Source: Microbacterium sp. LWH3-1.2
Lineage (GTDB): Bacteria; Actinomycetota; Actinomycetes; Actinomycetales; Microbacteriaceae
Reading direction: 5' to 3'
Assembly (NCBI RefSeq): GCF_040675855.1
Contig: NZ_JBEGIK010000001.1
Location: forward strand, 2,666,001 to 2,730,000
DNA length: 64,000 nucleotides
Both the position numbers and the translations under genes were made by a program. The notes below the pieces were generated by a model. The model was not told where the DNA came from. It worked only from the letters and a program-made list of their open reading frames with translations, and made no database searches. Positions 15,365-21,471 of the stretch are shown here, in pieces. How positions within the stretch are numbered: the stretch's first letter is position 1; every line of letters starts with the position of its first letter.

Positions 15365-17446
15365 TCACGCGTCGATGCGCTCGCGCACCAGGCGATCGCT
15401 GGAGTCGATGATGAACTCCTTGCGCGGCGCCACGTCGTTGCCCATCAGCAGTTCGAAGACGGATGCCGCCGCCTCGGCATCCTGCATCCGCACGCGTCGG
15501 AGCGTGCGGCCGCTCCGGTCCATGGTCGTCGTGGCCAACTGGTCCGCGTCCATCTCGCCGAGGCCCTTGTAGCGCTGAACCGGCTCCTGCCAACGCTTGC
15601 CGGCCTTCGTGAGCTTCGTGAGGAGTCCATGCAGCTCGGCCTCGGAGTACGTGTAGATCGTCTCGTTGGGCTTGGAACCGGGGTTCATCACGACCACGCG
15701 GTGCAGCGGCGGGACGGCGGCGTACACGCGGCCCTCGTCGATGAGCGGTCGCATGTACCGGAAGAACAGGGTCAGCAGCAGCGTGCGGATGTGGGCGCCG
15801 TCGACGTCGGCGTCGCTCATCAGGATGATCTTGCCGTAGCGCGCGGTGTCGAGGTCGAACGAGCGGCCCGAGCCGGCTCCGATCACCTGGATGATCGCGG
15901 CGCACTCCGCGTTCGAGAGCATGTCGCTGATGGACGCCTTCTGGACGTTGAGGATCTTGCCGCGGATCGGCAGCAGCGCCTGGAACTCGCTGTTGCGTGC
16001 GAGCTTGGCGGTGCCCAGGGCCGAGTCGCCCTCGACGATGAACAGCTCCGACTCGGCGACGTCGTTCGACCGGCAGTCAGCGAGCTTCGCAGGGAGCGAC
16101 GAGGACTCGAGCGCGTTCTTGCGGCGCTGCGTCTCTTTGTGGGTGCGCGCGGAGATGCGCGCCTTCATCTCGGAGACGACCTTGTCGAGCAGCAGCGAGG
16201 TCTGCGCCTTGTCGTCGCGCTTCGGCGACGTGAAGCGCGCGGTGAGTTCGCGCGTGACGACGTTCGACACGATCTGGCGGACCGCCGGTGTGCCGAGCAC
16301 CTCCTTGGTCTGACCCTCGAACTGCGGCTCGGCGACGCGCACGGTCAGCACGGCGGTGAGCCCGGCGAGGATGTCGTCCTTCTCGAGCTTGTCGTTGCCG
16401 ACCTTCAGGCGACGTGTGTTCTGCGCCACCTGATCGCGCAGCACCTTCATGAGGCCCTGTTCGAACCCCTGCTGGTGCGTGCCGCCCTTGGGTGTGGCGA
16501 TGATGTTGACGAACGAGCGCGACACCGTCTCGTAACCGGTTCCCCACCTGACGGCGATGTCGACGTGGCACTCGCGCTCGAGCTCTGTCGGCACCATCGC
16601 GCCCGAGGGCTGCAGCACCGGGACGGTCTCGGTGAACATGCCCTCACCGGTGAGTCGCCACGTGTCGGTGACGCCGGAGTCGGGTGCGAGGAAGTCGGCG
16701 AACTCGGAGATGCCGCCGTCGAACCGGTAGCTCGTCTCGACAGGCTCGCCGGCCTCGGTGCCGGGTCGCTCGTCGCGGATGACGATCTCGAGGCCCGGGA
16801 CCAGGAACGCGGTCTGGCGCGCGCGCTGCTCGAGCTCCTGCAGGTTGAACGCCGCGTCCTTCGTGAAGATCTGGCGATCCGCCCAATAGCGGATGCGCGT
16901 GCCGGTCACGCCCTTCGCGGCGCGGCCCGCGACCCGCAGCTCGCTGCGCTCCTCGAAGGGGGTGAAGCCCGAGTCGGGGCTGCCGTTCGAGAAGACACCG
17001 GGCTCGCCCCGGTGGAACGACATCGCCCACGTCTTGCCGCCGCGGTCGACCTCGACGTCGAGGCGCTCCGAGAGCGCGTTGACGACCGATGCCCCGACGC
17101 CGTGCAGACCGCCCGATGCGGCGTACGAGCCGCCCCCGAACTTGCCACCCGCGTGGAGCTTGGTGAAGACGACCTCGACGCCGGTCAGCCCTGTGCGCGG
17201 CTCGATGTCGACCGGGATGCCGCGGGCGCGGTCGCGCACCTCGACGCTGCCGTCGGCGTGGAGCACGATGTCGATGCGTGAGCCGTGGCCGGCGAGTGCC
17301 TCGTCGACGGAGTTGTCGATGATCTCCCACAGGCAGTGCATGAGGCCGCGCGAGTCGGTCGAGCCGATGTACATGCCAGGTCGCTTGCGGACCGCTTCGA
17401 GCCCTTCGAGCACCTGGAGATGATGGGCGGAGTACTCGGCGGTCAC
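15365..17446 (-). CDS. parE: type IIA DNA topoisomerase subunit B (topoisomerase IV, ParE)
   Basis: ATPase subunit partnering ParC, 693 residues. The GHKL ATPase domain carries WEIIDNSVDEALAG (Mg/ATP Asn-Asp region, about residue 45), DRARGIPVD and SGGLHGVGASVVNAL. A transducer domain follows, then the TOPRIM domain with EGDSALG near residue 473 and DADVDGAHI for metal binding. The GTG start at 17446 follows TAGGAGAT. It is convergent with parC rather than in an operon with it. Confidence 0.93.
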   Translation of the reverse strand: MTAEYSAHHLQVLEGLEAVRKRPGMYIGSTDSRGLMHCLWEIIDNSVDEALAGHGSRIDIVLHADGSVEVRDRARGIPVDIEPRTGLTGVEVVFTKLHAGGKFGGGSYAASGGLHGVGASVVNALSERLDVEVDRGGKTWAMSFHRGEPGVFSNGSPDSGFTPFEERSELRVAGRAAKGVTGTRIRYWADRQIFTKDAAFNLQELEQRARQTAFLVPGLEIVIRDERPGTEAGEPVETSYRFDGGISEFADFLAPDSGVTDTWRLTGEGMFTETVPVLQPSGAMVPTELERECHVDIAVRWGTGYETVSRSFVNIIATPKGGTHQQGFEQGLMKVLRDQVAQNTRRLKVGNDKLEKDDILAGLTAVLTVRVAEPQFEGQTKEVLGTPAVRQIVSNVVTRELTARFTSPKRDDKAQTSLLLDKVVSEMKARISARTHKETQRRKNALESSSLPAKLADCRSNDVAESELFIVEGDSALGTAKLARNSEFQALLPIRGKILNVQKASISDMLSNAECAAIIQVIGAGSGRSFDLDTARYGKIILMSDADVDGAHIRTLLLTLFFRYMRPLIDEGRVYAAVPPLHRVVVMNPGSKPNETIYTYSEAELHGLLTKLTKAGKRWQEPVQRYKGLGEMDADQLATTTMDRSGRTLRRVRMQDAEAAASVFELLMGNDVAPRKEFIIDSSDRLVRERIDA

Positions 17447-17853: not shown

Positions 17854-17878
17854 CACCCGTCGCTTTCAGCGGCGGGTG
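17854..17878. terminator. hairpin between DUF7455 and the racemase-like gene
   Basis: CACCCGTCGCT, loop TTC, AGCGGCGGGTG: an 11-bp stem with one G-T pair. It overlaps the stop codon of the convergent racemase-like gene and can terminate both. Confidence 0.6.
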
Positions 17879-18915
17879 TATCTGCGTTCCACGAGCGGTG
17901 ACACGCGCAGGGCGATCTCCTCACCGATCGTGCCGATGAGCTCCGCGAGATCCGTCGCGCTCGCTTCGCCGGAAGCGCCCGGACCGTAGATGGTGACGGC
18001 ATCCCCGACGGCGGCTCCCGGCCACGCGGCGACGAGAGAATCCGAGTCTCCGACGGCGATGAGCGGCCGGCTCCCGGCGGGTGTTCCGACCACCGCGCGA
18101 GTGCGCAGTGTTGACGGAAGCCCGTGGAGAGATCCGAGATCGACCCTGACGGACTCTCCGGCCACCTCGATCACGTCGGCCTCGAGCGTTCCGATCGGCG
18201 TGAGGCCGAGGTCGGCGGCGGAGGGGCCTCCGGCCGAGCGGATGCCGTAGCAGAACGCCCCTACGCGAACCATGTCGTAGCGGAACGGCGGACGGGCGAA
18301 CGAGGCGGCGCTGGCGGCCAGATGACGCATCGCCGGGCGGAGGCCCACGGCCGCGGCCGCGTCGAGCGCCCACTCGTAGACCAGGCGGGCGTCGTCGTCC
18401 TCGGCGTCCGACGCCTCCGCGATGTGGCTCCAGACACCCACGACGTCGATGACGCCTTCCGTCTGCAGCGCAGCCGCGCGCGACACGAACCCCGGCCACT
18501 GCTCCGGCCGCACGCCGTTGCGGTGCAGGCCGGTGTCGATCTTGAGGTGCGCGCGCACCGTCGAGCCGGCGTCCCGCGCGGCCTCCGCGAGCTCCTCCAG
18601 CAGATCGGCGTCGCCGATGCCGAGGTCGATCCCCCGGGCGACGGCGGCGTCGAGGTCGTCGCGTGAGGCAGCGATCCAGGCGAAGATCCGGGCGTCGTCG
18701 CCGACGGCATCGCGCACCGCACACCCCGTCCGCACGTCGAAGGCGCCGAACCAGGTCACCCCCGTTGCGGAGGCGGCCCGCACGACGGGCGCCAGGCCGT
18801 GGCCGTAGGCGTCGTCCTTGACCACGAGCATCAGCTCGGCGGGAGACACCGTGTCGCGCACGCGCGCGACGTTCGCCACGAGGGCATCGAGGTCGACGGA
18901 GAGGCGGGCGGTCAC
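17866..18915 (-). CDS. alanine racemase-like protein A: intact PLP barrel, degenerate C-terminal domain
   Basis: A 349-residue fold-type III PLP protein. The N-terminal barrel is complete: the PLP lysine is K33 in VVKDDAYGHG, followed by HLKIDTGLHRNGV, VWSHIAEA, RHLAASAA and the closing YDMVRVGAFCYGI. The C-terminal domain is degenerate. Where alanine racemases carry VSYG (catalytic Tyr), GYADG and CMD, this protein has GESVRVDLGS, AVGDSDS and no MD motif, although the final GTIGEEIALRV and ERRY tail is kept. It should therefore bind PLP but lacks the second catalytic base. The GTG start at 18915 overlaps the stop of racemase-like gene B (GTGA), so the two are translationally coupled. A lone, inactive or non-alanine racemase is the alternative to a heterodimer. 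Confidence 0.85.
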   Translation of the reverse strand: MTARLSVDLDALVANVARVRDTVSPAELMLVVKDDAYGHGLAPVVRAASATGVTWFGAFDVRTGCAVRDAVGDDARIFAWIAASRDDLDAAVARGIDLGIGDADLLEELAEAARDAGSTVRAHLKIDTGLHRNGVRPEQWPGFVSRAAALQTEGVIDVVGVWSHIAEASDAEDDDARLVYEWALDAAAAVGLRPAMRHLAASAASFARPPFRYDMVRVGAFCYGIRSAGGPSAADLGLTPIGTLEADVIEVAGESVRVDLGSLHGLPSTLRTRAVVGTPAGSRPLIAVGDSDSLVAAWPGAAVGDAVTIYGPGASGEASATDLAELIGTIGEEIALRVSPLVERRYTRR

Positions 18916-19643
18916 GGTGCCTCCACACGGGTGGCGCGAAGTCCGACCGCCGTGATCAGCTCGCCGGCGGTCAGCCCCGTGGCGTGCACCCAGTCGGCGA
19001 GCGACGGCTCGCCCAGCGCCGGGTCGCCGAGGAAGAGGACCTCCGCGCCGCGCGGGATCGCAGCATCCGCGATCTCCACCACGCACACGTCCATCGCGAC
19101 GCGCCCGACGATGGCGTGCCGCTCCCCCGCGATCACCACGTGAACCGCGCCGCCGAGCCCGCGCACGATGCCCTGGGCATAGCCGCCGGTGACCAGCGCG
19201 ACACGGGTGTCGGCCGGCGCGCGGTACGCGTAGCCGTACGACACGCCTTCCCCGGCCCGGAGATCCTTCACCGAGAGCACGGTGCCCGTGAGTCGAAGGG
19301 CCGGCGCCGTCGGGTGCTGCACACCGGTGAGCCCGAAGAACCACGAGGGCGAGAGATGCTGCGCTCTCGCGGGCATCGCCCAGGGCTCGGAATCCTGGCG
19401 GCGCCTCGCGCGAACGCTCGCTCCGGACGTGAAGCCCTCCCTCGCGAGCACGCGCCGCGCGAGCTCCGCGCCGTGTCCCCAGGCATCCGCTTCCAGGATC
19501 GACGGGTCGTACCAACGGATGCCGCGCTCCCACGCGGCCCGGGCGTTCGCGGTGAGTGCAGCCCGCGAGACGCGTGCAACCGGGGCGCTGCGGGGGTCCG
19601 ATCCCGGCACGGCATGGTCGTGCCCAGGGATCGCGGAACTCAC
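18912..19643 (-). CDS. alanine racemase C-terminal domain protein B, barrel deleted
   Basis: A 243-residue protein that keeps only the edges of an alanine racemase. Residues 25-60 resemble the racemase N terminus (SRAALTANARAAWERG, then ILEADAWGHG), but glutamate E51 replaces the PLP lysine. The sequence then jumps, without the TIM barrel, to a complete C-terminal beta domain: GEGVSYG with Tyr136, the equivalent of the catalytic Tyr265 of Bacillus Alr, GGYAQG (Tyr155) and GRVAMDVCVVEI (Met184-Asp185). It cannot form a complete PLP site alone. The GTG start at 19643 has a TAGTCT -10 ending 6 nt before it, so a leaderless mRNA is likely. Its stop overlaps the start of gene A. Confidence 0.85.
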   Translation of the reverse strand: MSSAIPGHDHAVPGSDPRSAPVARVSRAALTANARAAWERGIRWYDPSILEADAWGHGAELARRVLAREGFTSGASVRARRRQDSEPWAMPARAQHLSPSWFFGLTGVQHPTAPALRLTGTVLSVKDLRAGEGVSYGYAYRAPADTRVALVTGGYAQGIVRGLGGAVHVVIAGERHAIVGRVAMDVCVVEIADAAIPRGAEVLFLGDPALGEPSLADWVHATGLTAGELITAVGLRATRVEAP

Positions 19644-19686: not shown

Positions 19687-20709
19687 ATGTCTTCTCAGGG
19701 CCTCGCCCTCTCGAACCGCCTTCGCTACCTCGCCTGGCGGGTCCGTCGCATCGATGTAGGCTCCGTGCTGGAGCGCGCGCACGAGACCGCGCACGCGCAC
19801 GGCAAGTGGACCCCCGCGGTCGTGGTCGACATGCTGTGGTCGGCCGGTTTCAAGCAGGTCGGCTTCCAGGACTACGTCGACTACGACTTCGCGATCCTGA
19901 ACCGGTCGGAGCGGGCGACCTACATGACGCATCCGGTCTCGAACGAGCTGTCGCAGAAGTACGACGATCCCGCCTACCGGGGCCGGTTCCAGGACAAGGT
20001 CGAGTTCGACCGCACGTTCAGCGACTTCCTCCGTCGGGAATGGATGGTCGTCGAGGAGGGCAATGCCGACGCGGTGCGCACCTTCGCCCAGAAGCACGGC
20101 ACGATCGTCACGAAGGAGCCGGTGGGCCAGGCGGGCACGGGTGTGCACCGCTACCACGCAGCCGACGTCTCGGATTGGGACGACTTCCACCGCGGGCTGC
20201 TGTCGCGCGGCGAGCTGCTGATCGAGGAGGTCATCCGCCAGCACGCCGACCTCGCGGCCGTGTGCCCCGGAACCGTGAACACCACGCGTGTCACCGCGTT
20301 CTTCGACGGCGAGAAGACCCACATCCTGGCGATGGCGCAGAAGTTCGGTCGCGGGGCGGTGAGCGACCAGATGACCTTCGGCGGCTTCTACACGATGCTC
20401 GACGAGAACGGCCATGCCGTCGGCCCCGGCTACGACTCGCATGGCCACGTGCACGAGAAGCACCCAGACAGCGGCTTCCTCATCGCAGACTTCCAGCTGC
20501 CCATGATCGACGAGGTCAGGGCGTTCGTCGACCAGGTCGCGCGCGTCGTGCCCCAGATCCAGTACGTCGGCTGGGACATCGTGGTCTCGCCGGACGGTCC
20601 GGTGCTCGTCGAGGGCAACTGGGGCGCCGGTGTCTACGAGAACAAGCCGAGCGTCACCGGCATCCGCACCGGCCACAAGCCCCGCTACCGCGAGGCGATC
20701 GGATTCTGA
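19687..20709 (+). CDS. ATP-grasp protein of the sugar-transfer-associated type
   Basis: A 340-residue ATP-grasp protein that resembles the 'sugar-transfer associated ATP-grasp' family (ATPgrasp_ST). Visible parts are IVTKEPVGQAGTGVHRY (nucleotide-binding lysine and glycine loop), LLIEEVIRQH, PGTVNTTRVTAFF, and the C-terminal metal-binding YVGWDIVVSPDGPVLVEGNWG. Family members join a carboxylate to an amine or similar nucleophile via an acyl phosphate; the substrate here is unknown. It has no signal peptide. It is divergent from the racemase-like pair with only 43 bp between starts, and is followed by a strong terminator. ATG 19687 is preceded by CGGAG. Confidence 0.8.
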   Translation: MSSQGLALSNRLRYLAWRVRRIDVGSVLERAHETAHAHGKWTPAVVVDMLWSAGFKQVGFQDYVDYDFAILNRSERATYMTHPVSNELSQKYDDPAYRGRFQDKVEFDRTFSDFLRREWMVVEEGNADAVRTFAQKHGTIVTKEPVGQAGTGVHRYHAADVSDWDDFHRGLLSRGELLIEEVIRQHADLAAVCPGTVNTTRVTAFFDGEKTHILAMAQKFGRGAVSDQMTFGGFYTMLDENGHAVGPGYDSHGHVHEKHPDSGFLIADFQLPMIDEVRAFVDQVARVVPQIQYVGWDIVVSPDGPVLVEGNWGAGVYENKPSVTGIRTGHKPRYREAIGF

Positions 20710-20775: not shown

Positions 20776-21467
20776 TCAGATCGTCCGGACGATGCCGAGC
20801 GGCGTCGACTGGTGGCCCTGACCCAGCGGGTTGTCCCTGAGGATCGAGACGAGACGCTTCTCTTCCGCCTTGTCGAGCGTGGAGCCGAGGATGTTGCCGC
20901 CGAGGTCGTTGATGTCGACCACGGCCACCTCGGGTACCCCGCCGAGCAGCGCCTTGAGGTGGGTCGCGACCTCGCGCGGGCGCTCGGGTCCGAGCACGAC
21001 GGCCTTGTTGTACGGGGGGATCGTTCCCGACGTCGGTCCGTCGATCGCGCGGGCTTTGTCGCCGGCGATGCGATAGAAGTCGCCCTTGCGGCCGAACAGC
21101 TTGGTCACGGCGGAGACGGCGGCCGCGAAGAGGATGCGGAGCGTGCCGCACTCTCGCAGCGCCATCTCCATCGTCTCGGGCATGCCGAGTCCGATGCCGT
21201 AGGGCGTGCGGGTGACGTACTTCGAGAGGAAGAGCGCCAACCTGCGCGGCGTGATGTCCTCGACGAGGTACGAGCGTCCCTGCGTGATCGCGACGATCTT
21301 CTCCGTCACGAACAGCAGGTCGCCTTCGCGCACCGCATCGGCCGCGTACTCGCGGACGAAGGCGTCGAGGTCGTCGCCCGGCATCACGACCCGCGTGCGG
21401 ATCGGGATGCGCGCGAACGACGAGCCTTCGACCTGTACGGTGAGCGCCTTGCCGGCGTTCGCCTCAC

Positions 21468-21471
<4 letters not shown>
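20776..21471 (-). CDS. coenzyme F420-0:L-glutamate ligase-like (CofE superfamily) protein
   Basis: A 231-residue protein of the F420-0:gamma-glutamyl ligase superfamily. The N-terminal part fits well ([34 protein letters not shown]). However, the CofE motifs GVDxSN and DTFGRPWR are not present; instead there are [15 protein letters not shown] and [14 protein letters not shown]. No F420 biosynthesis gene is nearby. It is thus probably a glutamate or other amino acid ligase with a substrate other than F420-0. Its ATG overlaps the sigA stop (ATGA), so it is translationally coupled to the primary sigma factor gene, which implies constitutive expression. True CofE activity remains possible. Confidence 0.75.

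Follow-up and report, generated by a model that had tools for sequence, protein, structure and literature searches.

A candidate heterodimeric fold-type III racemase encoded by two complementary alanine racemase-like genes in Microbacteriaceae

Ordinary alanine racemase (Alr; PF01168 plus PF00842, TIGR00492) is a single polypeptide that forms a homodimer with two equal active sites, in each of which the lysine that binds pyridoxal phosphate (PLP) is complemented by a tyrosine base from the partner subunit. The window analysed here, a stretch of 64,000 nucleotides from Microbacterium sp. LWH3-1.2 (contig NZ_JBEGIK010000001.1, positions 2,666,001 to 2,730,000), carries two overlapping genes, here called B and A, whose products belong to the same fold family and retain between them the PLP lysine, the partner-subunit tyrosine base and the other active-site residues that we checked. 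Unlike in Alr, these residues are divided between two proteins, and the residue at position 354 is acidic. We propose that the two proteins act together as one racemase.

Broad-specificity, lysine and ornithine racemases of the Alr fold are known as single-chain, unsplit enzymes, and the SPT1/SPT2 serine palmitoyltransferase has no known sequence relation to the B-A pair. Broad-specificity and lysine racemases (PDB 4dyj, 4dza, 7agz) and ornithine racemase resemble the proposed enzyme in combining the Alr fold with larger or cationic amino acids. SPT1/SPT2 is a eukaryotic transferase of fold type I but, as described in the available passages of PMC6148460, it is likewise a PLP heterodimer in which one subunit lacks the PLP lysine, presumably with one site, and it has homodimeric relatives. 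Racemization of 2,4-diaminobutyrate in an actinobacterium has been described for PddB, which, according to the available passages of PMC8225329, differs in being PLP-independent and DapF-like and in serving a homopolymer rather than the wall. A literature search judged by title, with subscription journals mostly outside its reach, found no report of a split or heterodimeric alanine racemase, nor, judged by title in part of the matches, of an enzyme for the racemization of ornithine or diaminobutyrate in the peptidoglycan of this family. We know of no earlier fold-type III PLP racemase with one asymmetric site made from two decayed paralogues; if our proposal is true, the pair would be the first such enzyme known to us, and one whose stages of decay are visible in living genomes, from a long B without the lysine, through a shortened B, to a bare C-terminal domain.

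Complementary residue loss in A and B

The bounds that the initial annotation had given to the two genes stand (Table 1), with the addition that both lie on the minus strand, so that B comes first, upstream, and A second, downstream. Its description of A as a protein with the PLP lysine and a full barrel, and with a degraded C-terminal domain, agrees with the motif VVKDDAYGHG, which contains K33, and with the Pfam comparison: A matches Ala_racemase_N over positions 1-219 of 220 (177.9 bits), and Ala_racemase_C by its tail only, at 22.9 bits, under the cut-off of 25. B had been described as lacking the lysine and the barrel while keeping the motifs VSYG (Y136), GGYAQG (Y155) and GRVAMD (M184-D185). 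These motifs are indeed present, and E51 lies in ILEADAWGHG; the match to Ala_racemase_C is complete (positions 2-126 of 127, 100.1 bits), no Ala_racemase_N domain was found in B by the Pfam search at E 0.001, and only the first part of the barrel remains. The GTGA overlap of the genes was also borne out. Neither protein reaches the cut-off of 168 bits of the NCBIfam model alr (TIGR00492), A scoring 136.5 and B 86.4. The closest solved structures for both are alanine racemases, mostly so named in their entries; the nearest B proteins carry the names of Microbacterium species. The names used in databases are 'alanine racemase', 'alanine racemase-like protein', 'alanine racemase C-terminal domain-containing protein' and, once, 'hypothetical protein'.

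Table 1. Positions of the gene pair, its key codons and the neighbouring genes within the window
Feature	Position	Strand	Description or basis
Gene B	18912..19643	(-)	GTG start, 243 aa; truncated Alr, catalytic C-terminal domain intact, PLP lysine lost
Gene A	17866..18915	(-)	GTG start, 349 aa; PLP-binding barrel complete, degenerate C-terminal domain, Tyr265 lost
GTGA overlap of B stop and A start, 4 nt	18912..18915	(-)	Sequence
A Lys33 codon (PLP Schiff-base lysine, Lys39 of the Bacillus enzyme)	18817..18819	(-)	Sequence and alignment
A Glu332 codon, at the place of Tyr354	17920..17922	(-)	Sequence and alignment
B Tyr136 codon (catalytic base, Tyr265 of the Bacillus enzyme)	19236..19238	(-)	Sequence and alignment
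B Glu51 codon, at the expected place of the PLP lysine	19491..19493	(-)	Sequence and alignment
ATP-grasp ligase (PF14397), divergent from B	19687..20709	(+)	Pfam
F420 ligase (CofE)-like protein (PF01996)	20776..21471	(-)	Pfam
Topoisomerase IV/gyrase B subunit (parE-like), conserved flank	15365..17446	(-)	Pfam

The alignment of the family took the canonical Alr of Microbacterium sp. LWH3-1.2 as its reference, and residue numbers other than those of the window proteins themselves follow what we take to be the numbering of the Bacillus alanine racemase. Counts are based on 43 A rows and 42 B rows, as one locus at a contig edge (L090, genome G124) contributes A only; L091 and L094 were retained though their A is cut by contig ends. 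Two loci were excluded: L085 (G140), which is a separate split of the alr locus itself and is treated below, and L110 (G009), which was rejected as a B-A pair, being a single alr read in two frames.

Lys39, Tyr43, Arg136, His166 and Arg219 are present in all 43 A rows and Tyr265 in none of them; Arg290 is found in 6, Arg309 in 2, Met312 in 1 and Asp313 in 32. Among the 42 B rows, Tyr265, Arg290 and Met312 are present throughout and Arg309 in 41, position 313 is Asp in 37 and Asn in 5, and Lys39 is never found, its place being taken by Arg in 30. The same division is seen in two database sets of 120 top relatives each, one for B (146-251 aa) and one for an A profile of the Asp354 type; among their members are B and A proteins of the window itself, from genomes used above. 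In these sets the A relatives have Lys39 in 120/120 and Tyr265 in 0/120, and the B relatives have Tyr265, Tyr284, Arg290, Arg309, Met312 and Asp313 in 120/120 and Lys39 in 0/120. The suggestion, made from the window alone, that each protein supplies what the other lacks is borne out for Lys39 and Tyr265 in every row of the family and database sets. As Lys39 and Tyr265 occur together in 30 of 30 full-length Alr rows, this complementary loss is not due to chance.

Conservation of this kind bears on the possibility that A and B are a decaying duplicate of alr, a pseudogene pair that is being lost. Each is degenerate if judged as a single alanine racemase, and the family has many alr paralogues, as such a reading would have it. 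Against it stand the open frames, the same catalytic residues and the same B-A order across 25 genera, a loss that is complementary rather than random, and the correlated distances of the two proteins: taken pairwise, those of A and B have a correlation of r 0.73 over 34 loci, and the partial r remains 0.60 after ParE and RpoD are removed, a value as high as which was obtained in 0 of 2000 permutations. The one broken pair encountered (G253, L252) comes from a genome that is 68% complete, and we regard the pseudogene explanation as close to refuted.

B also varies in length, from 344 aa in L053, where the lysine is already lost, through the majority of loci, which retain the first part of the barrel, to L056, L060 and L063, where it is little more than a C-terminal domain. 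These shortest forms, which barely exceed the catalytic domain, speak against B being a regulatory or stabilising partner of the prozyme kind, with A as a catalytic homodimer in which a different residue takes over from Tyr265 as the base. A, almost complete in length, could dimerize with itself, and the Asp313, Arg290 and Arg309 that some A rows retain (32, 6 and 2 of 43) are in keeping with such an arrangement. However, no A row has Tyr265 and most lack Arg290, Arg309 and Met312, residues that B has in 41-42 of 42 family rows and 120 of 120 database rows, and a mere regulator would not be expected to be held to catalytic residues. We consider a prozyme-like role improbable.

In the arrangement that we favour, B and A would together form an amino acid racemase of fold type III, a PLP-dependent obligate heterodimer in which a single site works. 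A would bind PLP in its barrel, via Lys33, and provide the lysine base, Arg136, His166, Arg219 and the acidic residue at 354. The C-terminal domain of B would cover this site in the manner of the partner subunit of a normal Alr, and would contribute the tyrosine base (Tyr136 of B) together with Arg290, Arg309, Met312 and Asp313 as carboxylate-side residues, while the mirror site, formed by the barrel of B and the C-terminal domain of A, would be dead. The heterodimer is very probably the working form. An obligate heterodimer with a composite site had been put forward in the initial annotation; the sequence tests, namely co-occurrence, a full-length alr elsewhere in the genome and the split alr of genus g78, support it, and indirect evidence for the complex itself comes from the complementary residues, the co-occurrence and the correlated distances.

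Co-occurrence, whole counterparts and a second split locus

The survey of Microbacteriaceae covered 150 genomes, with 60 fetched loci read; it was the stronger matches that were fetched, and the counts are therefore minimum values. The B-A pair is present in at least 42 of the 150 genomes, representing 25 genera. A is preceded by B at 42 of its 43 loci in the family, and in the 43rd, a further genome with A at a contig end (G124, L090), the contig stops at the place where B is expected. The frame relation between B and A is the same in 39 of the 42 family loci (L063, L070 and L089 deviate) and in 38 of 38 Microbacterium loci where both open reading frames were called.

Within Microbacterium, an A-type match with E <=1.5e-66 is seen in 99 of 119 genomes, and in the other 20 the best matches range from 9.1e-33 to 1.5e-45. 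One of these 20 is the 68% complete G253, whose locus L252 has B, an A with a broken frame and, next to them, an ATP-grasp gene, and the final tally is A in 100 of 119 genomes (one of them frame-broken) and not in 19. Eighteen of the 19 absentees are 99-100% complete; the other, G208, is 81% complete, and no B match was found in it. Forty of the 99 clear A loci were fetched, and B is upstream in all of them, 38 by open frame and 2 by tblastn, the latter with a shorter C-terminal domain. A genome keeping one gene without the other had been named at the outset as one case that would speak against a heterodimer; none was seen among these loci, with B upstream in 42 of 43 in the family and 40 of 40 in Microbacterium.

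The same regularity makes it hardly credible that A and B act separately in some other reaction, A for instance as a PLP carrier like PLPBP. The barrel of A is complete for PLP and would suit that role, but A without B occurs in none of the 42 and 40 loci sequenced on both sides, and the source genome has a separate protein of its own (L004, a weaker match to PF01168) that we take to be PLPBP-like.

M. sufflavum has two copies of the pair (L232, L245), with an ATP-grasp gene near each. To look beyond the family, a B profile was run on the order, with 297 genomes that included 274 from outside Microbacteriaceae; among the matches listed, all those outside the family had open reading frames of at least 353 aa, like full-length Alr. 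One Micrococcales metagenome-assembled genome (MAG; L162) has the B-A pair.

The acid-354 enzyme occurs either whole or split. In 13 genomes, two full-length genes stand in tandem at the alr locus, the upstream one with Tyr or Trp354 and the downstream one with Asp or Glu354, and no Alr gene was called beside parE in the 10 of these genomes that were examined (in G093, G011 and G026 the gene order differs). Curtobacterium sp. PhB115 has a further full-length acid-354 enzyme, of the Glu type. The barrels of A and of the full-length acid-354 enzymes form one clade within Alr (SH-aLRT 97). A single origin of split A, as one clade, was rejected when its members were held together (p-AU 1e-4; 42 of 116 barrel rows, 21 of them split A). 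In the C-terminal domain tree the full-length acid-354 enzymes group together, so that re-fusion of the split enzyme with an alr C-terminal domain is possible. As the barrel test rejects one clade, yet the C-terminal domain tree allows for re-fusion, we claim no number of origins of the split.

Complementary division is also seen at a different locus. In genus g78, both genomes have the alr locus itself divided between two genes, A2 and B2 (L085 5607-7477 (+); L129 3989-5874 (-)), which in L085 follow each other in the order A2, B2 and lie just upstream of a gene that we take to be tsaE-like. A2 keeps Lys39 and Tyr354 and has lost Tyr265; B2 keeps Tyr265, Arg290 and Met312, and Thr replaces Lys39. 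Neither genome yielded an intact alr when searched with both Alr domains. Each genome has four Ala_racemase_C matches, corresponding to two B genes and two A tails, and the other Ala_racemase_N matches, among those listed, are weak and presumably PLPBP-like. In a control, the Ala_racemase_C model missed Corynebacterium glutamicum, which has alr, and the N model detected it. With no intact alr found, g78 would depend on the split enzyme being functional, unless it has another source of D-alanine.

B2 groups with the acid-354 C-terminal domains in the C-terminal domain tree and A2 with the Tyr354 barrels in the barrel tree; the g78 genes thus look like the product of complementary decay of a tandem of alr and acid-354 alr. 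We lean somewhat towards the view that fold-type III racemases of Microbacteriaceae became obligate heterodimers more than once through complementary decay of paired alr copies, giving a D-ornithine or D-diaminobutyrate racemase with Glu or Asp354 at the rpoD-parE locus, and a two-protein alanine racemase, with a C-terminal domain from the acid-354 paralogue, at the alr locus of g78.

Residue 354 and the wall diamino acid

A canonical full-length alr elsewhere in the source genome, the presence of which had been left to be checked, is found at C1:1560816-1561886, with the checked residues kept and Thr at 204. With this gene present, the host would not have to rely on the pair for housekeeping alanine racemization, and the pair likely has another job, the provision of a D-diamino acid for the wall, a role that the initial annotation had not proposed. 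The genome also has a second, divergent full-length Alr at C1:1689163-1690239 (L003/L008), which belongs to a set of divergent full-length copies, in this and other genomes, with Ala, His or Asn at 354 (the others being L131-L135, L137, L138 and L140).

We take residue 354 to border on the PLP phosphate and on the side of the substrate. It is Asp in 25 and Glu in 17 of the 43 A rows, the last row being cut by a contig end; it is Glu in all 40 further Microbacterium A rows and Asp in all 120 best relatives of the Leifsonia-type A profile. The Glu354 type is found in Microbacterium, including M. testaceum StLB037, M. resistens and M. sufflavum, and in the full-length form in Curtobacterium, and the Asp354 type in Diaminobutyricibacter, Diaminobutyricimonas, Leifsonia, Rathayibacter soli and Pseudolysinimonas, and in Schumannella MAGs. 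The replacement of Tyr354 by Glu or Asp suggests a cationic substrate, which would be ornithine in Microbacterium (Glu354) and 2,4-diaminobutyrate in the Leifsonia-like genera (Asp354), the product being the D-diamino acid of B2-type peptidoglycan.

According to the available passages of PMC10757982, the diamino acid of the wall serves as a marker in the taxonomy of the family, and Microbacterium walls contain D-ornithine, L-lysine or diaminobutyrate depending on the species; D-ornithine is given there for M. sufflavum, which carries the pair. Clavibacter xyli, now Leifsonia, is placed in the B2-gamma diaminobutyrate group in the available part of PMC5882085, and a title cited in it calls Leifsonia a genus of diaminobutyrate-containing actinomycetes. 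The wall of Rhodoluna yields a D-Ala-D-Dab (D-alanyl-D-diaminobutyrate) peptide, as stated in the portion of PMC4156110 at hand.

Among Microbacterium species, B matches identify M. trichothecenolyticum, M. terrae, M. jejuense, M. kyungheense, M. ureisolvens and M. hatanonis as carriers, and three absentees could be matched by identity of their canonical Alr to M. lacticum (100%), M. laevaniformans (99.5%; 100% to oral taxon 186) and M. flavum (99.5%). Aureobacterium is a D-ornithine genus, and M. lacticum, M. laevaniformans and M. flavum have L-lysine walls. In the available passages of PMC10757982, the first five of these carriers are assigned to cluster I, M. terrae is a former Aureobacterium, and the three absentees all belong to the M. 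lacticum cluster; M. radiodurans, M. enclense and M. gubbeenense appear there as exceptions. M. enclense and M. gubbeenense are of the L-lysine type.

This pattern has to be set against a real heterodimer with a substrate other than the wall diamino acid, such as a second alanine, serine or homoserine racemase, or a catabolic enzyme. The substrate is deduced only from residue 354, the taxon pattern and the neighbours, and the divergent second Alr of the source genome at C1:1689163-1690239 adds to the case for such an enzyme. Yet 42 of 43 A rows have an acidic residue at 354, with the choice between Asp and Glu following the diamino acid in the walls of the named taxa; the pair is missing from M. 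lacticum, M. laevaniformans and M. flavum, of the L-lysine type; and full-length acid-354 enzymes are present in 13 other genomes and in Curtobacterium sp. PhB115. We think a different substrate unlikely, though less so than any other alternative considered here, and hold it probable that the heterodimer makes D-ornithine or D-diaminobutyrate for the wall. The pair would then be candidate genes for the source of the cross-bridge D-ornithine or D-diaminobutyrate in type B peptidoglycan, and could serve to predict the wall diamino acid from the genome.

Several observations weigh against these proposals. As many as 94 of the 150 genomes surveyed may have neither the split nor the full-length form, a figure not based on reading each genome. 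Cryobacterium has a diaminobutyrate wall, and Cryobacterium sp. Y11 shows Tyr354 enzymes only. A full-length Alr from Arthrobacter sp. (L167 3959-5206 (+)), in which no D-diamino bridge is expected, has Asp354, so that an acid at 354 is not a unique sign. The neighbouring murT-gatD or ATP-grasp genes are present with or without the pair and are therefore weak functional evidence, and the barrel and C-terminal domain trees conflict on the kinship of split and full-length acid-354 enzymes. Of the 19 Microbacterium absentees, moreover, only the three above were matched to species by Alr identity, and the available passages of PMC10757982 are silent on the L-lysine walls of these three.

Neighbouring genes at the locus

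Neighbours were labelled on the basis of Pfam and sub-cut-off NCBIfam matches. Around the pair in the 43 family loci, rpoD is found in 36 and parE in 42. The pair is adjoined by murT in 26 loci, 21 of which also have gatD, and by an ATP-grasp gene in 10 loci according to the gene caller, or 11 with L072, detected by phmmer. Most of the ATP-grasp loci also have a CofE-like gene, and murT and ATP-grasp occur together in no pair locus. The ATP-grasp and CofE-like genes of the window (Table 1) occupy the slot between rpoD and parE that holds murT-gatD in other genera.

In all 12 of the Microbacterium absentees that were examined, no Alr gene was called at the locus; ATP-grasp is present in 10 of them and the CofE-like gene in 8. 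G118, a pair-less genome of another genus, has both murT and ATP-grasp. The idea that ATP-grasp and the pair constitute a dedicated operon was dropped, as ATP-grasp and CofE-like genes persist in pair-less Microbacterium and murT, not ATP-grasp, stands at most pair loci. The D-Glu residue of lipid II, which bears the type B bridge, is modified by MurT-GatD. Possibly, the ATP-grasp and CofE-like ligases replace the enzymes that modify lipid II D-Glu in type B peptidoglycan, for example by attaching Gly or a diamino acid. At L063 and L051, two back-to-back ATP-grasp paralogues lie beside the pair.

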